Shown in pieces: positions 39,500-52,138 of a stretch of 64,000 nucleotides of DNA (position 1 is its first letter; each line of letters starts with the position of its first letter). A program made the translations under genes and the position numbers. This DNA is from Micromonospora endolithica (GTDB lineage: Bacteria > Actinomycetota > Actinomycetes > Mycobacteriales > Micromonosporaceae): contig NZ_RBAK01000003.1 of NCBI RefSeq assembly GCF_003626595.1, positions 1 to 64,000 of the forward strand. The letters run 5' to 3'. Below the pieces are notes generated by a model. The model had not been told where the DNA came from and did not search any database. It saw nothing but the letters and a program-made list of their open reading frames with translations.

Positions 39500-39815
39500 G
39501 GATTCTCCGCTCGTTGTACGATCTTGCTAACACACTAACACACGCCCTGCGCCAGATGGCCGTGAAGTCGGGCGCGCCCAAAAGCAGCCCGGGCTCACGC
39601 CAGGCGATCGTTGGCGGCATGGCGATACCAAGACCATCGCAGGCATGCGGACTGGTTACACCTCGATGACGGGCCGTACATCAACGGATCCATGGGTAAC
39701 GCTGAGCAGCCACTATGCATTCGGGCACGACGAATGCCCATCAGGATGGGTAAGGTGATCCGCAGCATCGGCGTCGATGTCAGCGCGCGGCGCCTGTACA
39801 CCGTTGAGAGGCAGC
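39500..39815. promoter_or_regulatory. Divergent promoter region with tandem CTAACACA
   Basis: This 316-bp gap separates the start of the leftward ten-gene operon from the rightward regulator gene. CTAACACA is repeated head-to-tail at 39527-39542 (TGTGTTAGTGTGTTAG on the leftward strand), 28 bp before the zinc-ribbon gene's start. That position fits a promoter or operator. The regulator encoded at 39816 is the obvious candidate to bind it. No gene is seen in the gap. Confidence 0.55.
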
Positions 39816-40946
39816 ATGGGATCGACCGCATCCGCCCGTCGGCACCCCAGCCCACAGGCGCGTGGGCGAGAGCTCGCCCGACTCGGCAAGCAGCTATGGC
39901 AGGAGTTGGGATCCGTCAAGGCCGTGGCCGCAGAGCTGATGAGTCGAAACCCCGACGTCCCAAGCATCCAGGCGTACCGGTACGCAGCCGGACTCTCGCA
40001 GGACCAAGCCGCCGTGCGCTATAACGAGGTCGCCGAACACCAGACCAGCCTTGGAGGGACGACGATCAACGCCTGGGAGACGTGGGCACGCACGCGCGGT
40101 TCAGGCTCCCCGCCACCCTTCTCCAGCCTGCTCATCCTTGCCACCGCCTACAGCCGGGGACCACTTGGAGTTACCGACGAAGACATATCGCCGAGCGACC
40201 TCGTTGCGGAAGCGTATGAGCGACTAGCGCCGGAAGATCAAATCTCGCTGAAGACGCTTTCGGCGAGGAGCAGCCATCCGAGTCAAGGCCCAGGCGGCGC
40301 TACCACGGTTGACCTAGCAACCAGGCTGCCGGCAGGCTCGAACATCGTCGGGCCCGACTTCAACCTGACCGTGCCCACCGTCGACTTCGGAAATCCCGAG
40401 ATTTGCGCCTTCTCGTTACCGAATCCTCGCCCCGGCAACCTCCTCGACCTGACCTGGGAGACCTTCGGCTTCGGAGTCGAGCGCCTGATTAGGCAAATCA
40501 AGAACGTCGGTAGGCGACTCGATGTCGACATTTGCTTCGGGGTGAACGAGGCGGGCCTGGTCATGGCCACCTTCCTCGCCTCAGCCCAGTTCTCGCGCTG
40601 CGCCATCGGCTATCTGCGCTGCAACAAGGTGCGAGACAGTATCGCCCTTGCCTCCACCTCCTTCTATCCCGAAGCAGACGAGGCACCGACGATACTTATC
40701 TGCGATTTCGAGGTCAAGCACGCCGACGTCGTGGGCTTCTTGGCGAGCGAGATCCGTCGCCGATATCCCAACGCATCGCTCTACTTCGCCGTGTTCGGAG
40801 CGATGACCAAAGGCTCAGATCTTGAAGTGGCCAGCTTCGACGAGCTGACTGGTGCTCAGATCATGCGAGCAGCCGACTTTTCGGCCGTGTTCATCGCCGC
40901 GACGATGAGCCCGCCCGGCATCGAACCGCCACTTGAACTGCGATAA
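39816..40946 (+). CDS. XRE-type regulator fused to a phosphoribosyltransferase-like domain
   Basis: ATG 39816 (GAGAGG upstream) gives a protein of about 376 residues. Residues 40-100 form a lambda-repressor-like HTH (SIQAYRYAAGLSQDQAAVRY, TINAWETWARTRG). A linker region lies near 120-170. The C-terminal half has an alpha/beta domain with a PRTase-like core: FGVNEAGLVMATFLASAQFS, CNKVRDSIALASTSFYPEAD and EAPTILICDFEVKHADVVGF, where the last matches the PRPP-loop position. A regulator that senses PRPP or a nucleotide, as PurR and PyrR do, is inferred. It is divergent from the operon that contains a PRTase and directly precedes a phosphatase gene. Confidence 0.75.
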   Translation: MGSTASARRHPSPQARGRELARLGKQLWQELGSVKAVAAELMSRNPDVPSIQAYRYAAGLSQDQAAVRYNEVAEHQTSLGGTTINAWETWARTRGSGSPPPFSSLLILATAYSRGPLGVTDEDISPSDLVAEAYERLAPEDQISLKTLSARSSHPSQGPGGATTVDLATRLPAGSNIVGPDFNLTVPTVDFGNPEICAFSLPNPRPGNLLDLTWETFGFGVERLIRQIKNVGRRLDVDICFGVNEAGLVMATFLASAQFSRCAIGYLRCNKVRDSIALASTSFYPEADEAPTILICDFEVKHADVVGFLASEIRRRYPNASLYFAVFGAMTKGSDLEVASFDELTGAQIMRAADFSAVFIAATMSPPGIEPPLELR

Positions 40947-40963
40947 TGACGTCAGGAGACGCG

Positions 40964-41893
40964 ATGGACTACAAGGCTGAATTGCCCGATCTTGCTCGGC
41001 AAACCGCAGAGGTCGTGGATACGATCATGCTGGAGATCCGACCCAAGCTGCTTGAAGCGGCCTTCACCGGCAAGGCAGGGGAAAGCGAGAACCTGCGACA
41101 CGCGGACAACTTCCTGTCGGTACATGACATGTGGTCGCACGAGCGGTACCGCGAGCTGATGAGCAGGCATCTGAAGTCTTTCGTCTATGCCTCCGAGGAG
41201 GCCGAGCCGCAAGTCGTCGGTGATGAAGCCGATCCCGACCTGTGCGTTCTCGTTGACCCGCTCGACACCAGCGAGCTAGCAGTGCGGGGACTTTTGGGTT
41301 ACACCCATGTCATGATCTACTCCCGCGCGCTCGCACGACCCATCGTGTCGGTAGTGGGCGACATCTACCACCACGTCCGGCTCTACGTAGCCGCTCAAGA
41401 CGACGATGGAAACGACCGCGCCTACGCCTTCACGGCCGACGGCCAGGGACGGGCACTCCTCCAGAGAGAGCCGAAACGTCTATCAGAGTCCCTCCTCACC
41501 AATTTCCTCATGCGACCGGCCGAGCGGCTCCTCCCCCTCAGCCGACAGCACCGACTCATGACTGCACTCGACCAACCTGACGCAGACGGCAAAAGCAGGG
41601 GAAGGATCGGCGTCGACTTCGGCTCAGTCAGCCTCTGCCACGTCGCGGCAGGATTCACCGAAGGCGTCCTTGAGTTCGCTAAAGGCTTCGCCATCTGGGA
41701 CCTCGCACCGGGTCACTACATCCTCCACGCCGCCGGCGGAACGGTGCTGGACCTCGAAGGTCAACCTATCCCACTCGACTACGGGCTGGCATCGCTAATT
41801 GACATCGCCGACGCTATGGATCGAAGGCAGAAGTTCGTTGCCACAGGCAGCCGTGCGCTAGCCGATGAGATTCTCCACTACATCGATGCCTGA
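40964..41893 (+). CDS. Inositol monophosphatase-family phosphatase
   Basis: The protein of about 309 residues belongs to the lithium-sensitive phosphatase superfamily. The metal site is visible as YASEEAEPQ and LVDPLDTSELAVRG (DPxDxT). The C-terminal FAIWDLAPGHYILHAAGG matches the WDxAxG motif. The substrate could be an inositol, a sugar phosphate or a 3'-phosphonucleotide. ATG 40964 has AGGAG 5 bp upstream and is preferred over ATG 40946, which overlaps the previous stop (TAATG). The Gly of the usual DPLDGT is Thr here. It is co-transcribed with the regulator. Confidence 0.85.
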   Translation: MDYKAELPDLARQTAEVVDTIMLEIRPKLLEAAFTGKAGESENLRHADNFLSVHDMWSHERYRELMSRHLKSFVYASEEAEPQVVGDEADPDLCVLVDPLDTSELAVRGLLGYTHVMIYSRALARPIVSVVGDIYHHVRLYVAAQDDDGNDRAYAFTADGQGRALLQREPKRLSESLLTNFLMRPAERLLPLSRQHRLMTALDQPDADGKSRGRIGVDFGSVSLCHVAAGFTEGVLEFAKGFAIWDLAPGHYILHAAGGTVLDLEGQPIPLDYGLASLIDIADAMDRRQKFVATGSRALADEILHYIDA

Positions 41894-42798: not shown

Positions 42799-43345
42799 TC
42801 ATTTGGCGTGCTTGACGAGTTTGCGGTAGAAGATGAGGGCGCAGGCGATGGTGGTGAACGGGGCGAAGTGGTCGGCGTGGCGGTCGTAGCGGTGTATCAG
42901 GCGCCGGTAGCGCATCAGCCATGGCATGGTGCGCTCGATGACCCAGCGGTGGCGGCCGAGGCGTTGTAAAGACTCGATCTTCTTGCGGGCGATCCGCACG
43001 GTGATGCCGCGCCAGCGGACCTCAGCCCGCAGTGCTCTGTGGTCGTAAGCCTTGTCGGCGTGCAGCCTGTCGGGTCGGCGGCGCGGGCGGCCGAACGGCC
43101 CGCGACCGCTGGCAGACCGTCCAGCAGTGGCAGCAGCACCGCCGCGTCCGGCATGTTCGCTGCGGAGATGGCGGTGTTCAGCGGCAGGCCGCCACGCTCG
43201 ACCATCGCATGGATCTTGCTGCCGGGCTTGCCACGGTCGACCGGGCTCGGCCCGGTCAGATCGCCCCCTTCTCAGCTTGTAACTGGATCGAGTCAATCAC
43301 CGCCCTGGACCAGTCCAGGTCCCCACGAGCCTGCAGGCGGCCACC
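42799..43345 (-). pseudogene. IS5-family transposase remnant
   Basis: Pieces in two frames reconstruct the C-terminal half of an IS5-type DDE transposase: DWSRAVIDSIQLQAEKGGDL, then TGPSPVDRGKPGSKIHAMVE. After frame changes near 43.2 and 43.1 kb come LHADKAYDHRALRAEVRWRG, RWVIERTMPWLMRYRRLIHR and KLVKHAK. The N-terminal half is absent and no terminal inverted repeats could be paired. It lies between the truncated membrane protein gene and the CARF gene. Confidence 0.8.
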
Positions 43346-43437
43346 TTGATCGGTCGCTCGAGATCGCGCCACCCCCTGCCACAACGGCCGCCGATATACG
43401 ACCGCTGGCTCCTACCGGCGCAAGTTACTGTGTTCGG

Positions 43438-44904
43438 GTGGAGACACTCGAGTCAGGACTTTCACGCCGCGGTCGGATACTCGCGCGTGAGGAAGAGTAC
43501 GGCGATCACCCGAGTCCCGTGGACGCCGCTGACGCATATGCCCTCGATCACCTGCGTGGCTTGATAGCGGAAGCCGTCCGCCGCAACTCCGATGTCAAGC
43601 TCGATGGAACGGACCTGGTGCTCATCAGCATTACAGGTCGCTCACCGATGTCCACAGTGGTCGCCCACGACGTATTACGGCCACGTCGACTTTTGGTGAT
43701 CCACTCTGGCAGGGGCGAGGAGGCTGTCAATGTAATCGGCGACTACGTGGTCGGTCCGGGTCGCCTGAGGCATTCCGAGTTCTTCCATAACCACGTAGAC
43801 GCCACAGATCCACGGGTTGTGTACCAAATCATCAAAGACTTCCTCTCACGTTCTGACATTTCCCGTGATCGCGTGATCCTCAATATCACCGGCGGCAACA
43901 AAGTCATGAGCGCCGCCGCAGCGCTCGCCGCGTGGCAGCTCGATCTGGAACTGTGCTACGTCGATGTCGAGCCGGACCCTGCAACGGGACACATCCGGCC
44001 CGAGACTCAACGACTTCTTCTGTTGGACAACCCCATCAGCATCTTCGGCGACCAGGAGATGGTCCGCGCTGCGGAACTTCTACGAGCTGGCGCATTCGAC
44101 ATCGCGAGCAAGAGATACCAGGATCTGAGCGACCGGCTGGCCAGCCCAAGCGTAGCCAGATTCTGGAAGGCAGTGAGCGATCTGTATAAGGCGTGGTGTG
44201 ACCTGGCGTTGGCCGACCTCCCCGCGCTCGCCGACCGCGTGGAGGACTTGCTCAACAGCTACAGGGAGCCGCTGTCGCCGGCAATCACATCCAGGATCCG
44301 GCAACAAGTCGCCTTCTTGCGGCGGCTGGACGACTCGCCAGAGAGCCGCCTCAACTTGATCCTGGGACTTCATATCCTCGGTGGCCACTATTCACGCCTC
44401 GGGCGGAATGACTTCGCGGCATTACTCTACTACCGGACGATCGAAGGCTGCCTAGCTTGGCGCCTTGAGGAGACCCACCGAGGATTTCTCTGTGACTCGC
44501 CGGACTACACATTGCTCGGCGATGACATCGAGAGTGGCTACGCTGCTTTGTCTATCGGATCTCCCGACGACGACTCCGGCTTGCCGTCCAAGGTAAGCCT
44601 CGTCGCGGCAGCGAGACTGCTCGCGTGCACGGACGACGATTTCGCAAAACGGGCGGGATTGACAAACCAAAGGGCGATCCGCAACTTGGCCGACCTGACA
44701 GCGGCGCGGAACAAATCAGTCTTGGCCCACGGCTTCAAGCCGATCGACGTTGAATCGTCCGAGAATCTCGGGAGACGCGCCTTCTTCTACCTCAAGACGA
44801 TTTGGGAGCTACATCGGCCGGCGGAAGACCTCGATGACCTGAGAAAACACCTGGCCTTTGTTATTCCGCCAGAGAGCGGCGACTCAATGGCTAAGGAGGA
44901 ATAG
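43438..44904 (+). CDS. CARF-HEPN protein (TIGR02710/Csm6-like ribonuclease) without CRISPR
   Basis: The protein of about 488 residues has, at residues 60-175, a CARF-type Rossmann domain: LVLISITGRSPMSTVVAHDV, and the family block RVILNITGGNKVMSAAAALA. The C-terminal region is helical and ends in a HEPN domain with the R-x6-H site RNKSVLAH (R424, H431). The layout matches the TIGR02710 family, ring-nucleotide-activated RNases usually next to type III CRISPR loci. None is seen here. GTG 43438 is the first start not overlapping IS remnant sequence; it may be leaderless. It converges on the PLD/helicase operon 57 bp away. Confidence 0.82.
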   Translation: METLESGLSRRGRILAREEEYGDHPSPVDAADAYALDHLRGLIAEAVRRNSDVKLDGTDLVLISITGRSPMSTVVAHDVLRPRRLLVIHSGRGEEAVNVIGDYVVGPGRLRHSEFFHNHVDATDPRVVYQIIKDFLSRSDISRDRVILNITGGNKVMSAAAALAAWQLDLELCYVDVEPDPATGHIRPETQRLLLLDNPISIFGDQEMVRAAELLRAGAFDIASKRYQDLSDRLASPSVARFWKAVSDLYKAWCDLALADLPALADRVEDLLNSYREPLSPAITSRIRQQVAFLRRLDDSPESRLNLILGLHILGGHYSRLGRNDFAALLYYRTIEGCLAWRLEETHRGFLCDSPDYTLLGDDIESGYAALSIGSPDDDSGLPSKVSLVAAARLLACTDDDFAKRAGLTNQRAIRNLADLTAARNKSVLAHGFKPIDVESSENLGRRAFFYLKTIWELHRPAEDLDDLRKHLAFVIPPESGDSMAKEE

Positions 44905-44961: not shown

Positions 44962-46185
44962 TCAACCCGGTGCAGCAGTGTACGTCATGTCAGAATGGTC
45001 AATCGAGTGGTCCAAGAATCGTTGAGCGTCAGTGACCGCACTGCTACCGACCGGGAGAAGCACTCCTGCCTCTACGCTACCAAGAAGTCCGAGCCGCATG
45101 TCGAGGTTCGCTGAGAAAATAGCGCCTTGTCGCCCGTCCGCGATGACGGCTTTGGCGTGTGTCAGTGAATCGCCGTAGATCTCGACGCCGACGGAGGCAA
45201 GGTTGTCTAGTTCTTGCATGTGTGCAGGGAAGGTACGACCACGAACGAGTAGCCGAACTCGCACACCACGGTCGAGCGCAGACTTTAGAGGATCTAGCAC
45301 CCAGTATGGTTCGTCGGCGATCCCAGCGATGCTGAAGGTGGCGAGGTCCAATTTCGATTCCGCAGAACTGATAATGTGCCGAATCGTCTCGGCGATCAAG
45401 CTGCGGTTGCTGTGGGTCCAGATGATCGAGCCGGTCGCATTGATCTGAACGGCCGGCAGTTGAGGGAGCGGTAGAACGGGCTTACGTTGCCTCAAGGCAT
45501 ACGCGAAGCCTGGCCGGGCTTCCTCGCTGCTTTCATGCCACAGCCGGGCGAAGAAGCGGCTAGCCTCGAGTATGCGCGCCTGGTCGTGGATAAGCACGCC
45601 CAACTCGCCTGTCACCGGCCGGTTGACCGTGCCGGTGAGGGCACTTGTCTCCAGGTTGGCGCTCCCGATCAGCGCGCGCCTGTCGTCGACAACTACGAAC
45701 TTGGCGTGACAATCAACATGGCCGCGAACATAGATTCCCGCCTTGGTGAGCCTATGGAACCGCTTCTTCTGAGCCTCTATTGAGCCGCTGTCGTCCGCCT
45801 CGGTGTCTTCGAGGGAAACGAGATCAAGCTCAGCTAGACCTCGGGCGAGGGAACGATCGTTCCATGCCGTGATGACATAAACGCGGCCCCTCAGCCGGTC
45901 GACAGCGTCCAGAAGGGACCGCAGGAGGTCGTCCTCGCCCAAACGGAAACTTGCGATGAAGACCTTCTCGCGAGCGGAGTCGATCAGTTCGACAACGGTG
46001 TCGCGTATATTGGGTTCTGATCCCCGATAGGAGAAGACAACTTGCTGTCCGGCGTCATCGCATGATTCCGCCCGTATTGGCACGCTCGACAACTGCCCTT
46101 TCTGAAAGGTGCCTGTGCTTGGATCGACCTCGCCGACCTTTATCGGCCTAGTCACGCGGGATGTCCGTTGGCTCGGTGAGTGCAT
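44962..46185 (-). CDS. Phospholipase-D-superfamily nuclease
   Basis: The 407-residue protein has two HKD motifs: HAKFVVVDDRRALIGSAN (H160, K162, D167) and HAKAVIADGRQGAIFSAN (H343, K345, D350). Together they form one active site of the PLD nuclease type. There is no signal peptide, so it acts in the cytoplasm, probably on DNA or RNA. It is the last gene of the helicase operon. The ORF start at 46185 overlaps the previous gene by 38 bp; GTG 46155, giving an 8-bp overlap, is equally possible. Helicase plus PLD nuclease is the core of Mokosh systems. Confidence 0.88.
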   Translation of the reverse strand: MHSPSQRTSRVTRPIKVGEVDPSTGTFQKGQLSSVPIRAESCDDAGQQVVFSYRGSEPNIRDTVVELIDSAREKVFIASFRLGEDDLLRSLLDAVDRLRGRVYVITAWNDRSLARGLAELDLVSLEDTEADDSGSIEAQKKRFHRLTKAGIYVRGHVDCHAKFVVVDDRRALIGSANLETSALTGTVNRPVTGELGVLIHDQARILEASRFFARLWHESSEEARPGFAYALRQRKPVLPLPQLPAVQINATGSIIWTHSNRSLIAETIRHIISSAESKLDLATFSIAGIADEPYWVLDPLKSALDRGVRVRLLVRGRTFPAHMQELDNLASVGVEIYGDSLTHAKAVIADGRQGAIFSANLDMRLGLLGSVEAGVLLPVGSSAVTDAQRFLDHSIDHSDMTYTAAPG

Positions 46186-47413
46186 ATGCGAGCGTGAAGT
46201 GTCCCAGCGACCACACTCGGCTTAGCATGTCGTCGATTGTCGTCAACTGCGGAACGTGTCGTTGCCGTGGCCTGCTCTCGTCAAGGAAACGGAGAATCGG
46301 ATTGACCGAGTCCTCGGCCTGCGCTTTGGCTATTGCCTTGTCGCGCGTGAAGAGACGCTCAGCGCGTGGGTCTGTTGGGCGGAACGACATTGACAGAGAA
46401 ACGGTGCAGTCATCGGCGGCCACCTCCAAGGCGGCTTCCGAAGCGAGGTTCTGACGGGCCGCCACTTCCGACGCCGATAAACCATCGATGTCGAGCTGCC
46501 AGGTATCTATTGAGCACCGTGTGGGCAAGCCACGTGGAGGCGTCGATGTTGACGAGGTCAAGGCGTGCCACAGTGCTCGCCGATACGTTGTCGTTCCCAG
46601 CACATCCGCCAACTGCTTCCATGAATCACCGAGGTTGGTCTGGCCCTGGATTGAGATGTGGACCGGCTCGGATCGTGCCTGACCGTTCGAACGCCGAGGA
46701 GGTTTCGAGCGGAACATAAGGGACAGTTCGGTGCTTTCATGGGTGGTTCGAAGGACCGCGTCGCACTGATACGCGAGACAAGTGCCGTCGGCGAACAGAG
46801 GTGGATCAGGAGTGGTTACCCGCTCTGTAAGTCCGACGACGCCAGAGTCGGCGCCGCGGATGCGGCCGAGCCGGATGTGCTCTTCCAGAAGGTCTGACCT
46901 CTTCACGCCCGCCAATTCTCGCGGGACGGGAACTGTCGCGACGACGTATCGGCCTCGATCGTCGAGCTTCGAGAACGCCTTCGCATCTTGTTTCGACAGG
47001 GCTACGACCTCGTCTGAGTCGGGCAAATAGATATATGATTGAGAGCCCTCGACCGCATCGTAAGTCTGTCCCCTTTCAAGAGTTTGGCGTGCCGTACTCG
47101 TTGCAAAGTATTCAGTATCGCGTCTTACGACGGCCCCGCCCCTAATCAGCCTACGGCAAAGCGCGTGCAGCAACTCGGATGGCAAACCGGTGATGGCCTC
47201 GAACTGCGCGGTACTGAACGTCTCAAGTTCTGTTGCGCATTCCAGAACGAACAATTCGAGCTTGGTCAGCCTCGAACTGTTGAGCTTCCTGACCTCTACA
47301 TCGGGCCAGAATGCGATCCGCAACGCGGCTCCGTAAATGTGGAGCGCGTTGTCACCCGGCCCGTGGCTGCCTCGCGCCGAACGCCGGACTTCCACTGAGC
47401 GACGTGGCGTCAT
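46148..47413 (-). CDS. Unknown middle component of the helicase-PLD operon
   Basis: I recognise no family in this 421-residue protein. Residues 48-105 look like a winged helix (LTKLELFVLECATELETFST, QFEAITGLPSELLHALCRRL). A beta-rich region with alternating hydrophobic strands lies at 200-350 (AYQCDAVLRTTHESTELSLM). A C-terminal helical part at 360-421 contains ESRPRQRHVPQLTTIDDMLS. No kinase, protease or nuclease motif is visible. Its ATG overlaps the helicase stop (ATGA), so it is tied to the helicase in translation. It occupies the place where known two-gene helicase/PLD systems have nothing. Confidence 0.8.
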   Translation of the reverse strand: MTPRRSVEVRRSARGSHGPGDNALHIYGAALRIAFWPDVEVRKLNSSRLTKLELFVLECATELETFSTAQFEAITGLPSELLHALCRRLIRGGAVVRRDTEYFATSTARQTLERGQTYDAVEGSQSYIYLPDSDEVVALSKQDAKAFSKLDDRGRYVVATVPVPRELAGVKRSDLLEEHIRLGRIRGADSGVVGLTERVTTPDPPLFADGTCLAYQCDAVLRTTHESTELSLMFRSKPPRRSNGQARSEPVHISIQGQTNLGDSWKQLADVLGTTTYRRALWHALTSSTSTPPRGLPTRCSIDTWQLDIDGLSASEVAARQNLASEAALEVAADDCTVSLSMSFRPTDPRAERLFTRDKAIAKAQAEDSVNPILRFLDESRPRQRHVPQLTTIDDMLSRVWSLGHFTLAYALTEPTDIPRD

Positions 47414-50400
47414 CAGGTGTCCTTCACGATAGTCATCACGTCCTTGCGACTTTCCAGCGTGCTAAAGAGATGCCTGTAGAACTTCGTGGCTTCCGGCACA
47501 GACCGTAGACCTTCGAGGGTGGGCCGGTGCCCGACCATGATGAGGCCGCGGCGAGCGCGCGTGAGTGCTACGTTGAGCCGGCGCGTGTCCTGTAGCCAGC
47601 GCCCGTAGTTCGGACCGGGCCTCCCCTGTTTAGCTCTGCAAAAACTGACGATCACCAAGTCGCTCTGCTGGCCCTGAATGCTGTCGATGACGCCGACCAC
47701 ATCGAAGCCAACCCTGGCGAAGGCCGGCGAGTGGGGGTACTCGATTCGGTCGCGGATGAGGCGGGCTTGCTTTTTGTAAAAGGTCAGGACGCTCACAGAG
47801 AGCGTTTCGTTAGTCGCTTGCAACTCCCGCTCGATATTCGAGCAAACGCGCCAAACCCAGTCCACCTCTAGGGCGTTGGTGAAGCCGCCGTCGTCGAACT
47901 CGTCGTAAGCACGCTGATGTGCCGCGGTATCCATGAAGACAACCGGAGCACCGAACGCCGGCAGCACGAACGGCTGTGGACCGGCCGCCCCCGGAGGGGG
48001 CGAGAGGAGTCCGCCACCGTAAATCGGCTCGTTGACCAAGCTCGCAATAGGCTCGATCATTCGCCGCTGTGTGTTCAGCTTGGCGACAAGCCCGTCCGGC
48101 ACTGTGGTGATACACCGCTCGAACAAGCTCTTCGTCAGATGCTTGCGAACAAGCCTTATCACCTGCCGTTCCGGACTCTTTTTCTTCCGGCCGATCAAGC
48201 GCAGAAGATCATCGAAAGTTTTCTCATGGACCGACCAATTCGGTGATTTGCGCAGTTCTTCCGTCGCCGCGAGGACAGAGTCCCGCCGGAATTCTCTGGT
48301 CTCGTCGTCCTCATACCACTGCGTCGCAAGCCTGCTCACTGCCTCCTCAAGGTCGATGGCGCATCCTGCCTTGACGAGACGGATCGCCGCCAACGCCAGA
48401 AAGTGGAGCTCGTCCTTCGGGTCTAGATATGGTGGGAGTTGATGCTCGTCGCCCACGATAATCCATCGTTTTGACTGGTTGGCGCCGATAAGAAACTCAA
48501 GGTCGATGACTCGGCTCGCCTCATCAACAATAAGCGTGTCGAAGTCGACATCGTCAAGTGAGGCCGCTCCGCCCGGTGTCGCGAACAAAACGTTCGCCGA
48601 CTGCCGAATCTGGAGCTGAAACTCGTCACGTGATTCAGCTCGACTCTTACCCTGAGTCTGCCCGCTAGCCTCAAACCAGCGGGCTTCCAACTCTATGAAC
48701 TTCTTGAGCACGGCCGCCCGGTCGGCGAGTTCCTGCTCGCGCGCCTCCCAAGCGTGATCTGCAATGCTATTGATTTCGTGCCCGACAAGATGGACGAGAC
48801 GGTCGGCGGCTAGGACCTCTCGTACTCGCGCCTCGGCCAGCTGGTCCTGCGCCCTCATGTATTGCTCGGCGAGACGCTCGCGTTCGCCTGCATAGCGGGC
48901 CGCGCCTTCCATCAACTGCTCGGAGCGCTCGGCCTGCCGCAGAGATATCGCTTCGATCCTGGACTCTGTTGCTTGGATGATTCGCTCAAGTCTCTTTGAC
49001 TTGGTTCTCAGTTCGCCAATCTCGCTAAGTTGAGCCATCACGCCAGGACCAGCAGGACGAGTGCCCCTTCGCTTTACGTCGGCTAGCTTTGAGTGAAGGC
49101 GTTCTAGCGATTCTTCGGACTCACGAACCGTCTTAACGTCAGATGACTCAGATTTGTTTATTTCTGAGACCTGACTCTCGTACTCCCTCTCCAGACGCTC
49201 CAGGGCGCCGGTGCCGTCTGCCAGGGTTTGCTCGAAAAGGGACCGCTGACTTCGGTACAGCCGGAACTCAGTGATCGCTTCGCGCAGAGAAACTAGCTCC
49301 TCGATTTCATCGCGCCACTCTTTCGCTCTGGACTGATCAATTGTCCTTGCGCGCCGCAGGTAGGTCGCTGACAGATGCTCCGGCATGAATCGCTGCAGGT
49401 CCTGGCGAACCCTCGACTCATCCCACGCGATACGGATAGGAAAGATGCTCGGCTCATTGCTAAGTCTCTGGAGGACCTCATCCAGGGCCACGTGCATAGG
49501 AGCGACCAGTAAGACACGCTCGCCTCGTTCGACGAGCTGTAACACGCTCTCGGTAATAACGCAGGTCTTGCCGGTGCCGGGAGGGCCCTTGATAAGAAAG
49601 GCGTGTGGGGCGTTGACCGCACCAGCAACTGCTTCTCTCTGTTCATCGTTGAAACGAAAATCGTCCGGACCGGCTCCGCATTCCAGGTGGAATTGACCAA
49701 TCTCTGTTCGCTGTATGTTTGACAGTCCTTCGGGCCGTAGTAGGAGAAGTGCCAGGTCGTCCCATGATCCATCTATGTTCTCCGCGGTGAAACGGCGAAC
49801 TGCGGCCGCATTGGCAAGCATCGAGAAACGAGGCACAGCCTCGGCGGTTACGTTGAGCCCTCGTTCGAGAACGACACTGCGGGGTAGTCGAAGTAGCAGG
49901 ACTCCACGGTCCTTGTTGGAGCCGGCTTCGTCAACCCGGCACCGTAGAGTGACTTGATCCCCTAGCGTGAGCGTGACTCTTGAGTGATCGAACAGGCGCG
50001 AATTGGCTTGAACCTGGACGACCGCGTTTCCTACGTGGCTGCCCGCGACCACGCCTTCCTCAGATATCTCTCCAGTCGTCGCAGCGCGCACCCGTAATAC
50101 CTGGAGCAAGGCCGAGATGGTGGCAAGCTCGCGTTTAGCGTCCCTCCTGAAACTTCTGCCTGGCGGCGTGCGTTTTTCCTTAGCTAACCGCCGACGGCTC
50201 GTACCACGAATGCTCTCCCGCCTGCGGAGGATTGACCTCGCTCTTGCGAATTTTTCCACAAGGTCAGGGAGGTCACACGGTGCGTCGTCGCGCTGTGGTC
50301 TCTCGAGCGTTACTGAATCCGGCCGGACCAACAAGCTGCGCCGGGCGACGATTGAGAACTGGACGTCGACTACTTTTGCTATTTCCGTGGACCCATCACG

Positions 50401-50661
50401 GCCAGTTGACGGGACAACAATGAGCCGAAACTGGGAGCCGGTCGCGATGAAAGCACTGCCTTGCTCTCTATGTGTGAGCGTCATCCCGTCCATCAGGTCG
50501 GCCTCGATCTCGTGAGCGCTGACGCCTGCCTTGTCCAAGACGTGCCGCAAGACGGTGAAGCGAATTGTCGCCTTCTCCGCATCGCATCGCGCGAATGCCT
50601 CAGGGTTGCGCTCGACGCACTCGTCATCAAGCCACGCGATGGGAATTTGCATCTCGGTCAC
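47413..50661 (-). CDS. SF1 (UPF1/DNA2-like, COG1112-type) helicase of a putative defence operon
   Basis: The 1,082-residue protein has an N-terminal 330-residue region of unknown fold. The helicase core begins with RFNDEQREAVAGAVNAPHAF and Walker A GPPGTGKT (residues 359-366). A coiled-coil insertion lies at about 430-640 (ERLEREYESQVSEINKSESS). Walker B LIVDEASRVIDLEF is near 710 and WIIVGDEHQLPP near 740. The end has motif V VIDSIQGQQSDLVIVSF near 990 and motif VI RRLNVALTRARRGLIMVG near 1,035. This is the AAA_11/AAA_12 class of RNA/DNA helicase. GTG 50661 or ATG 50652 starts it. It is the first gene of the operon. Confidence 0.92.
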   Translation of the reverse strand: MTEMQIPIAWLDDECVERNPEAFARCDAEKATIRFTVLRHVLDKAGVSAHEIEADLMDGMTLTHREQGSAFIATGSQFRLIVVPSTGRDGSTEIAKVVDVQFSIVARRSLLVRPDSVTLERPQRDDAPCDLPDLVEKFARARSILRRRESIRGTSRRRLAKEKRTPPGRSFRRDAKRELATISALLQVLRVRAATTGEISEEGVVAGSHVGNAVVQVQANSRLFDHSRVTLTLGDQVTLRCRVDEAGSNKDRGVLLLRLPRSVVLERGLNVTAEAVPRFSMLANAAAVRRFTAENIDGSWDDLALLLLRPEGLSNIQRTEIGQFHLECGAGPDDFRFNDEQREAVAGAVNAPHAFLIKGPPGTGKTCVITESVLQLVERGERVLLVAPMHVALDEVLQRLSNEPSIFPIRIAWDESRVRQDLQRFMPEHLSATYLRRARTIDQSRAKEWRDEIEELVSLREAITEFRLYRSQRSLFEQTLADGTGALERLEREYESQVSEINKSESSDVKTVRESEESLERLHSKLADVKRRGTRPAGPGVMAQLSEIGELRTKSKRLERIIQATESRIEAISLRQAERSEQLMEGAARYAGERERLAEQYMRAQDQLAEARVREVLAADRLVHLVGHEINSIADHAWEAREQELADRAAVLKKFIELEARWFEASGQTQGKSRAESRDEFQLQIRQSANVLFATPGGAASLDDVDFDTLIVDEASRVIDLEFLIGANQSKRWIIVGDEHQLPPYLDPKDELHFLALAAIRLVKAGCAIDLEEAVSRLATQWYEDDETREFRRDSVLAATEELRKSPNWSVHEKTFDDLLRLIGRKKKSPERQVIRLVRKHLTKSLFERCITTVPDGLVAKLNTQRRMIEPIASLVNEPIYGGGLLSPPPGAAGPQPFVLPAFGAPVVFMDTAAHQRAYDEFDDGGFTNALEVDWVWRVCSNIERELQATNETLSVSVLTFYKKQARLIRDRIEYPHSPAFARVGFDVVGVIDSIQGQQSDLVIVSFCRAKQGRPGPNYGRWLQDTRRLNVALTRARRGLIMVGHRPTLEGLRSVPEATKFYRHLFSTLESRKDVMTIVKDT

Positions 50662-51654: not shown

Positions 51655-52138
51655 TCTATAGCTGTCAAGTGGTGCTGGTCGCTGAGTAGGCGCCGTTCAG
51701 GGTCCGGAAGAGTTGCCGGCTGATGTAGCGCTCGAGGCTGCGCATGATCTCGCGTTTGGTGCGTCCTTCGCGGGGGCGGCGGGTTACGTAGTCGCGGGTG
51801 CGAGGGTCGTGGCCCATGCGGACCAGCGCGACGGTGTAGAGCGCTCGGTTGAGGCGTTGGTCGCCGCCGCGGTTGAGCCGGTAGCGGGTGGTGTTGCCTG
51901 AGAGGCCGGTAGCGGTGACGCGCCGGCCAAGGCAGCGAACGCGGCTTCGGAGCGGACGCGGCCAGGGTGGGACCAGGCCAGCAGAACGGTGGCGGCGACG
52001 ACGGCGCCGACACCTGGCAGGGCGAGCAGTTGTGGCGCTTTCGCGGTGACAGCTTCGTGCAGCGCGGTGTGGTTGGCGGCTAGTTCTGCGTCGAGGGCAC
52101 GGATCCGAAGGCCGCTCGAGGGCGGACAATCCGGTCAC
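51655..52138 (-). pseudogene. IS110-family transposase remnant
   Basis: The C-terminal (Transposase_20) half of an IS110-type recombinase is recognisable across frame changes: QLLALPGVGAVVAATVLLAW in one frame, then TTRYRLNRGGDQRLNRALYT and ALVRMGHDPRTRDYVTRRPR in another. The N-terminal RuvC-like DEDD domain is missing. It abuts the ISAs1 remnant, so at least two insertions occurred here. Confidence 0.8.

Follow-up and report, generated by a model that had tools for sequence, protein, structure and literature searches.

A candidate four-gene defence system joining a Mokosh-like helicase–nuclease operon and a Csm6-like ribonuclease in actinobacteria

Layout of the locus

The window, a 64,000-nucleotide stretch of Micromonospora endolithica contig NZ_RBAK01000003.1, had been predicted to hold a three-part operon, and the gene calls at its core proved accurate: three intact, overlapping ORFs on one strand encode an SF1 helicase of 1,082 residues, a 421-residue protein (here MID) and a PLD nuclease with two HKD motifs. 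A CARF-HEPN ribonuclease gene, previously missed, lies convergent to the PLD gene across an intergenic gap of 57 nt, and the boundary of the unit therefore moves out to 43438.

43438..44904, + strand: CARF-HEPN (Csm6/Csx1-like) ribonuclease gene, ~488 aa
44962..46155, − strand: PLD-family nuclease gene, two HKD motifs, 397 aa; ORF readable from 46185 (407 aa)
46148..47413, − strand: MID (wHTH adaptor-like protein) gene, 421 aa
47413..50661, − strand: UPF1/DNA2-class SF1 helicase gene, MkoA-like, 1082 aa, GTG start
42799..43296, − strand: DDE transposase remnant adjoining the CARF-HEPN gene (DDE_Tnp_1, 6.7e-7), outside the system
51665..52138, − strand: IS110-type transposase remnant upstream of the helicase gene (Transposase_20, 3.2e-5), outside the system

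All four window ORFs are open and their catalytic motifs are intact. The mechanical ORF for the CARF-HEPN protein begins at 43039, its first part overlapping, on the opposite strand, the DDE transposase remnant, which is presumably IS5-like. The IS110-type remnant sits on the helicase side, where relatives keep their CARF-HEPN gene. The two HKD motifs originally assigned to the PLD protein were confirmed (PLDc_2 8.9e-28 in Pfam, both HxK(x4)D motifs present), and its start was revised: the GTG at 46155 is preferred because an in-frame start with the same 8-nt overlap occurs in 10/10 other operons, so that K162/K345 become K152/K335.

Helicase, PLD and MID proteins and their known relatives

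The window helicase matched Pfam AAA_11 (3.7e-35) and AAA_12 (1.7e-32) and the PADLOC MkoA profile PDLC03920 (3.5e-88, the best stretch being profile positions 615-1099 of 1112), and the helicase set, taken without the interrupted helicase of locus L067, aligned with five MkoA proteins at 1.3e-55 in hhalign. Chains of DNA2, UPF1 and SMUBP-2 were matched at 3e-40 to 5.3e-40, and MkoC only partially (4.8e-22, PADLOC). The N-terminal 330 residues gave no significant hhalign match to the MkoA linker, and a Pfam search of the protein at E<=0.1 found no kinase domain; together with the MkoA match, this upholds the proposal of a kinase-less relative of Mokosh. The SF1 assignment likewise stands, and the coiled-coil insertion predicted with it fits by composition: Walker A (359-366) and DEAS (713-716) are separated by ~350 residues, within which positions 431-690 are rich in charged and ELRAQK residues, a composition consistent with a coiled coil.

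The HxK elements of the PLD protein (150-152 and 333-335 in the 397-aa numbering) are invariant in 12/12 sequences. At 397 aa, compared with 486-520 aa in 11 aligned relatives, the window protein is without ~90-120 C-terminal residues, and a search for the lost domain elsewhere in the window gave chance-level matches only (E 0.086 or worse). The PLD family aligned with MkoB at 2.3e-5 (76%, hhalign); when three MkoB proteins were scanned for PLD, only that of L010 matched, just under cut-off.

MID itself matched nothing in Pfam above cut-off or in PADLOC, and five and four members of its 11-member family weakly matched MarR_2 and TrmB wHTH models, respectively, in keeping with its earlier description as lacking any recognisable domain beyond a winged helix. 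It is fast evolving, the ten aligned homologues sharing 21-24% identity with the window protein, and the relatives have a common C-terminal tail (W...Y...EDF) that is degenerate in window MID. In hhalign, MID resembled the N-terminal wHTH domain of MkoB at E values of 8.6e-4 to 3.2e-8 that depended on the MkoB set: 8.6e-4 (probability 23.5%) against five MkoB proteins, 2.2e-5 (76.5%) against ten MkoB-type N-termini and 3.2e-8 (95.1%) once L105 was added. A reversed control gave 0.39, as did MID against an unrelated wHTH set, and the MkoB N-termini matched that unrelated set less well (0.031 and 0.014) than they matched MID. The signal may nevertheless be partly generic to wHTH domains, because a Csa3 wHTH model was matched by 3/11 MID proteins, as many as matched MkoB (3/11), and window MID matched neither. 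Profile comparison, suggested with the original prediction as a check on this protein, thus revealed MkoB likeness confined to ~115 N-terminal residues, the first third of MID; global alignment with MkoB gave nothing (0.53), and the region beyond had no match. A single-sequence AlphaFold2 model of MID (mean pLDDT 35) was set aside as worthless. Since the MID N-terminus resembles a domain that already precedes PLD in MkoB, MID and PLD look like a split MkoB/CnuE, and the sequence comparisons make a detached adaptor the more likely role for MID than the kinase-replacing sensor first proposed.

In Mokosh type I, MkoA joins a Ser/Thr kinase domain and an SF1 helicase in one chain, a fusion that we observed in L010 and L011. 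The window operon shares with this type the MkoA-family helicase core, the PLD nuclease and the likeness of MID to the MkoB N-terminus, but differs in that its helicase is without the kinase domain, wHTH and PLD are encoded by two genes in the window and ten other loci rather than by one, the PLD protein has two clear HKD motifs and the CARF-HEPN ribonuclease has no Mokosh counterpart. In Mokosh type II, helicase and PLD are fused in a single protein, whereas here they are separate genes.

The available part of Bell et al. 2024 (PMC11090510) describes CnuH of CoCoNuTs as a UPF1-like helicase whose Walker A precedes a helical insertion, with wHTH and nuclease next in line, type III-C CnuE as a wHTH with two PLD domains, and the CARF proteins found near CoCoNuTs as RtcR-like CARF activators or CARF–D-ExK nucleases. 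The present operon, like CnuH–CnuE, has a UPF1-like helicase with an insertion (judged by composition) and a downstream wHTH and nuclease; it differs in that these two are unfused and in that, relative to the partners described there, its CARF protein is a Csm6-like CARF-HEPN. Judged by shared gene families, the McrB-like GTPase CnuB and McrC-type partner of CoCoNuT types II/III are not part of it.

The CARF-HEPN ribonuclease and conservation of the four genes

The CARF-HEPN protein matched the PADLOC profile CARF1--CARF_HEPN PDLC01819 at 1.1e-165, and its family profile (positions 65-454) matched the solved T. thermophilus Csm6 5fsh at E 7.8e-33. Residues were mapped with the Csm6 functions given in the available part of PMC10897365, on an alignment of 14 proteins that leaves out the L078 fragment. 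HEPN R424/N425/H431 are invariant in 14/14, the CARF positions equal to Csm6 G58, T133, G135, K137 and Y161 are kept in 14/14, and the ring-nuclease-type motif II (T151, G153, K155) occurs together with HEPN R-X4-6-H, as in Csm6, in 14/14. Where Csm6 has T59, the family shows no conservation (F in 10/14, R in the window), and the loop that grips the ligand has diverged in the window protein, which has G and H at R172/R173, suggesting that its ligand may differ or that binding may be lost. The family therefore shares with Csm6 of type III CRISPR-Cas (T. thermophilus; 5fsh, 8jbb) the CARF-HEPN match (E ~8e-33), motif II and the HEPN residues, but is encoded with a helicase–PLD operon and has a changed T59 position.

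Cas10, the ligand maker of type III CRISPR-Cas, was over cut-off (PF22335) in 0/15 genomes searched, whereas 5/14 control genomes matched; one match fell under cut-off (G1165, E 2.8e-4). The available part of PMC8730458 describes a minimal Cas10 (mCpol) paired with CARF-HEPN, likewise outside CRISPR, but a search of the 11 genomes that carry the four-gene system detected no mCpol. In 9 of these 11, none of Cas10, mCpol and SMODS reached cut-off.

The order CARF-HEPN→helicase→MID→PLD recurs on the same strand in ten other actinobacterial loci, nine from the same family (including L067, in which the helicase gene is interrupted) and one from another. The gene-neighbourhood comparison envisaged in the original prediction thus found the helicase–MID–PLD order at ten further loci, beyond chance. 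In 10/10 non-window operons, the CARF-HEPN gene comes first with short gaps or overlaps (CARF-to-helicase gap −4 to +10 nt; MID/PLD overlap 8 nt), although the short gaps arise partly by choice because our script picked, among in-frame starts, the one that came closest to giving a 4-nt overlap. At L068, an alternative MID start is an ATG 41 nt past the helicase stop. A CARF-HEPN gene accompanies every strong MID locus found, 11 in all once the window and the locus from the other family are counted, and a three-part system is therefore not supported.

In a family sample of 150 genomes, MID matched strongly in ten (own included), all among the 14 with CARF-HEPN, an overlap with a chance of 8.6e-13 if genomes are independent. 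A weak wHTH-only match in G1154 (E 5e-7, profile 45-113; neighbourhood L114) was not counted as MID. The remaining four of the 14, one with a fragmentary CARF-HEPN gene, lacked MID, indicating that CARF-HEPN is not exclusive to the four-gene system. Counting the own genome each time, MID is patchy: 1/37 genus members, 2/397 in the order sample and 10/150 in the family. Distances for all six protein pairs were correlated across ten loci, the interrupted L067 helicase being left out of this test and of the helicase alignment (Mantel r 0.89-0.94, p 0.0001), a correlation that partly reflects common species history. In CARF, PLD and helicase trees, the last containing the L067 fragment, the window grouped with L068, L069, L074 and L075. 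No gene family beyond the four was common to more than three compared loci (ORFs >=90 aa, BLASTP 1e-8).

Wider searches were sparser. Across 394 genomes of the class, the CARF-HEPN model found the own genome alone at E<=1e-20, and the family search then gave the loci; in the family of G040, CARF-HEPN was present in one of three genomes searched (G040). The helicase profile matched 128 of 396 genomes of the phylum, with 3.1e-16 the best outside the own genome. Against genome contigs, query P0002 gave no related loci, and the helicase alignment gave five, with matches restricted to short helicase stretches. Plasmids yielded no match to MID or the window CARF-HEPN ORF, and the L066 CARF-HEPN protein matched two Thermus plasmids at 27-29% identity. 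A helicase match occurred in 86 plasmid records, six of which were retrieved, and L015, which has no annotated PLD neighbour, was left out as Mokosh. Viral contigs held neither MID nor CARF-HEPN, and phages held no CARF-HEPN.

These comparisons show that a predicted kinase-less MkoA/UPF1-like helicase, separate wHTH protein, two-HKD PLD nuclease and CARF-HEPN ribonuclease are encoded by a conserved operon whose proteins diverge in parallel. Judged from sequence, the system is new: within the helicase–wHTH–nuclease class (Mokosh/CnuHE) it forms a variant of four genes, one of them for a CRISPR-independent Csm6.

Proposed function and alternatives

Helicase–MID–PLD and CARF-HEPN probably form a four-gene anti-phage (or anti-mobile-element) system, a defence role that we infer by analogy. 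The helicase would load onto foreign RNA or ssDNA and translocate, MID would couple it to the PLD nuclease, and the latter would cut the invader. CARF-HEPN would be a dormant RNase, activated by a nucleotide ligand produced during infection as a second, cell-stalling echelon. More speculatively, and against the balance of probability, that ligand might consist of short fragments with cyclic or cyclic-phosphate ends, released when a complex of helicase, wHTH protein and PLD (or else the HEPN RNase) cleaves RNA of the invader or the host, so that degradation of the invader would serve as second messenger with no dedicated cyclase.

Alternatively, the helicase–wHTH–PLD genes, as a split Mokosh/CnuHE, could work alone, with CARF-HEPN an independent defence gene co-travelling in defence islands. 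Consistent with this idea, the window CARF-HEPN gene is on the opposite strand, and the same family adjoins other NTPases elsewhere: an McrB-like AAA protein with a DUF2357-like protein in L072, and a HerA-type ATPase with a CBS-domain protein or homologue in L076 and L077. Its constant first place, strand and spacing in the other ten operons, the 10/10 co-occurrence in the family sample and the correlated distances argue otherwise, and we consider this reading unlikely. Much less probable still is a Mokosh without a kinase, with MID as sensor in the kinase's place and no role for CARF-HEPN; the Mokosh-like helicase and PLD, the missing kinase match and the unmatched C-terminal two thirds of MID, which could be a sensor, would suit it, but the MkoB N-terminal domain that MID resembles is present in kinase-bearing Mokosh too, and the constant extra gene is CARF-HEPN. 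Least probable of all, given the patchy distribution of MID, the Csm6-type RNase and the transposase remnants, is that the genes serve actinobacteria in housekeeping, through RNA decay or DNA repair, as the UPF1/DNA2-like helicase might suggest.

The window copy poses a separate question. With its CARF-HEPN gene inverted on the far side of the operon relative to relatives and its PLD without the C-terminal domain, it may be altered or partly decayed. It could even be a non-working remnant, in which a rearrangement, perhaps through insertion sequences, moved CARF-HEPN out of the operon and cut the PLD C-terminus, irrespective of what intact operons do in other genomes. The shortened PLD, the transposase remnants on both sides, the degenerate MID tail and the CARF loop changes favour such decay, but the four open ORFs with intact catalytic motifs do not, and we regard it as a minority possibility to be taken seriously. 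Inversion via flanking repeats was rejected, as neither CARF-HEPN nor the operon lies between long inverted repeats; only insertion-sequence remnants therefore hint at how CARF-HEPN moved, and the DDE transposase remnant is possibly a trace of that rearrangement.

With a four-gene defence system as the preferred reading, the Mokosh/CnuHE helicase–nuclease class would now be tied to CARF-HEPN signalling in genomes with no Cas10 or mCpol over cut-off, raising the question of what activates a Csm6-type RNase where no cyclic-oligoadenylate synthetase is known. The loci also indicate modularity: the pair formed by an MkoA-like helicase and an unfused wHTH protein of MkoB type is joined either by PLD and CARF-HEPN or, in L105, by a kinase-like protein that weakly matches a Cap4 nuclease, and the same CARF-HEPN family also stands beside McrB-like and HerA-like ATPases.

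Composition and distribution of the four-gene operon

The original prediction joined an SF1 helicase, a winged-helix (wHTH) protein and a PLD nuclease in one candidate defence system. The three ORFs were located as predicted, and PADLOC added a fourth gene, encoding a CARF-HEPN protein, which is convergent with the PLD gene and 57 nt away from it:

47413-50661, minus strand, helicase
46148-47413, minus strand, MID, the 421-aa middle protein with a wHTH
44962-46155, minus strand, PLD, a nuclease with two HKD motifs
43438-44904, plus strand, CARF-HEPN (ORF 43039-44904, likely start near 43438)

The predicted order of helicase, MID and PLD recurs with CARF-HEPN in nine loci of the window's family and in G040, a genome of another family in which CARF-HEPN, helicase, MID and PLD form one same-strand operon; this last locus was found by a MID query, before CARF-HEPN served as query. 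The CARF-HEPN model matched 14 of 150 genomes of the family, the window's own counted, and 9 of the 13 other neighbourhoods carry the full set of four in that order, the helicase gene being interrupted in L067. L077 has CARF-HEPN and PLD, L072 and L076 have CARF-HEPN without helicase, MID or PLD partners, and L078 has a CARF-HEPN fragment. Across the same 150 genomes a MID profile matched strongly in 10 (E at most 2.3e-124), every one of them a CARF-HEPN genome, and gave one further, weak match confined to the wHTH (G1154). If genomes are independent, all 10 MID genomes would lie within the 14 by chance with probability 8.6e-13; the profile, built from loci reached via CARF-HEPN or MID, may miss very divergent MID proteins without CARF-HEPN. 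The four-gene system is rare beyond the window's family: a two-sequence MID profile matched 2 of 397 genomes in an order sample (the window's own and G040), and the CARF-HEPN model matched only the window's own among 394 genomes of a class sample. No gene family outside the four occurs in more than three of the loci compared.

Pairwise distances of the four proteins correlate across 10 loci (r 0.89-0.94, each p 0.0001), and trees built for CARF-HEPN, PLD and helicase group the window copy with L068, L069, L074 and L075; the CARF-HEPN group also takes in L072, the window joins L068/L069 at 91/92 in the PLD tree, and its helicase row is long in the helicase tree. The window CARF-HEPN gene, though inverted, therefore appears to be its helicase's natural partner. 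The locus itself looks rearranged: transposase remnants lie on both sides, a DDE remnant adjoining the CARF-HEPN gene and one of IS110 type upstream of the helicase gene, and the PLD protein stops approximately 90-120 residues short of its 11 relatives.

Other genes lie near these loci. In the window, a 389-aa protein without a Pfam match and then an inositol-monophosphatase-like gene adjoin the system (39777-41893) and may be unrelated to it, and a 785-aa SEC-C zinc-motif protein is encoded close to the G040 operon (L003, 3030-5387). In both L076 (5654-11929) and L077 (4223-12209) CARF-HEPN lies beside genes for a HerA-type ATPase and a wHTH protein, accompanied in L076 by a CBS-domain protein and in L077 by a homologue of it and by the PLD gene; homologues of these wHTH and HerA genes are close to the four-gene operon of L069. 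In L072 (4775-10757), CARF-HEPN directly follows two genes, one for an McrB-like AAA protein (AAA_5 4.3e-6, PDC-M26A 1.5e-30) in which a coiled coil is visible by eye, the other for a protein that matches DUF2357 (McrC-type) just below cut-off; this is perhaps an McrBC/CoCoNuT-like locus with a Csm6-like effector.

The helicase and a putative split MkoB

The window helicase matched Pfam AAA_11 and AAA_12 and the PADLOC model of the Mokosh helicase MkoA (3.5e-88), with no kinase match in either collection, and its family profile matched the solved structures of DNA2, UPF1 and SMUBP-2 (3e-40 to 5.3e-40). Its Walker A (359) and DEAS motifs are separated by 353 residues, and residues 431-690 are high in charged and ELRAQK residues. 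The spacing is 348-600 in seven complete relatives in which both motif strings were found, a range that leaves out L069 and L070, which are without the exact string; it is 573 in the interrupted L067 helicase.

The window MID had no Pfam match above cut-off, no PADLOC match and no match to models of the Csa3 wHTH or MkoB, the Mokosh PLD protein. A G040 relative of MID matched the N-terminal part of the MkoB model at 8.9e-7, and so did three of 11 MID proteins; three of the 11 matched the Csa3 wHTH model (best 9.7e-4). Profile-profile comparison of MID with MkoB gave E 0.002 with two MID proteins, 8.6e-4 (probability 23.5%) with 11 MID and five MkoB proteins, 2.2e-5 (76.5%) against ten MkoB-type N-termini and 3.2e-8 (95.1%) once the intermediate L105 was included. 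MID residues 23-137 are collinear with the first ~140 residues of MkoB. Forced global alignment of MID with MkoB gave no match (0.53), and neither control, with reversed profiles or with an unrelated wHTH set compared with MID, scored better than 0.39. The simplest reading is that MID and PLD together represent a split MkoB/CnuE (CnuE being the CoCoNuT effector), a likeness limited to the N-terminal third of MID, the other two thirds having no match.

L105 (7075-12772) encodes an MkoA helicase without kinase (4.9e-115), a separate MkoB-N protein without PLD (3.2e-18) and a kinase-like protein (PD-T4-6 2.2e-11; Pfam Pkinase and Cap4_nuclease below cut-off), and appears from its domains to be a further split-MkoB system with another partner. 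Long MkoB-like proteins (1072-1115 aa) occur in multi-gene operons in L109 (3665-12928), L110 (3398-12710) and L111 (5486-12372); L109 also encodes a helicase and a protein whose C-terminus looks histidine-kinase-like by eye.

Passages of Bell et al. 2024 (PMC11090510) describe CoCoNuT CnuH UPF1-like helicases as typically preceding a wHTH–effector fusion in which the effector is generally a nuclease, and propose that the wHTH might touch the helicase insertion. By analogy, MID would couple the helicase to PLD.

CARF-HEPN and its candidate ligand

The window protein matched the PADLOC model CARF1--CARF_HEPN at 1.1e-165, and family profile positions 65-454 align with Thermus thermophilus Csm6 (5fsh, 8jbb; ~8e-33), the type III CRISPR RNase. 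With Csm6 numbering taken from part of PMC10897365 and mapped onto the family by eye, the equivalents of G58, T133, G135, K137 and Y161 and HEPN residues R415, N416 and H422 are kept in all 14 CARF-HEPN sequences and that of S60 in 12; the T81 position is serine in all 14 and the T59 position is variable. The ligand-gripping loop of the window protein is divergent.

Across 15 genomes, Cas10 exceeded the cut-off in none, mCpol in one, which is without the four-gene system, and SMODS in two, both with it; thus in 9 of the 11 system genomes, some genomes being drafts, none of the three reached its cut-off. The ends of RNA made by the four-gene system itself are a candidate ligand: linear A4>P is cited as a TtCsm6 activator in PMC10897365, although A2>P, the product of cA4 cleavage, is reported there not to activate the enzyme. 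Mokosh is described as breaking down foreign viral transcripts (excerpt of PMC11291487), and CARF domains close to CoCoNuTs may detect RNA fragments with cyclic ends (passages of Bell et al. 2024, PMC11090510).

Relation to Mokosh and CoCoNuT

McrBC, a CoCoNuT feature, is absent among the genes common to the four-gene loci. The system also differs from Mokosh I and II in their defining features, the kinase having been confirmed in the Mokosh examples L010 and L011 only. The literature searched yielded no paper on CARF with Mokosh and HEPN, or on COG1112 with CARF, and the consulted portions of the CRISPR, HEPN and CoCoNuT literature no description of this gene combination; the CARF census of Makarova et al. 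2020 and the original Mokosh paper lay outside that search, and an earlier mention is possible. Together with Mokosh, the four-gene system falls into one broad helicase–wHTH–nuclease class.
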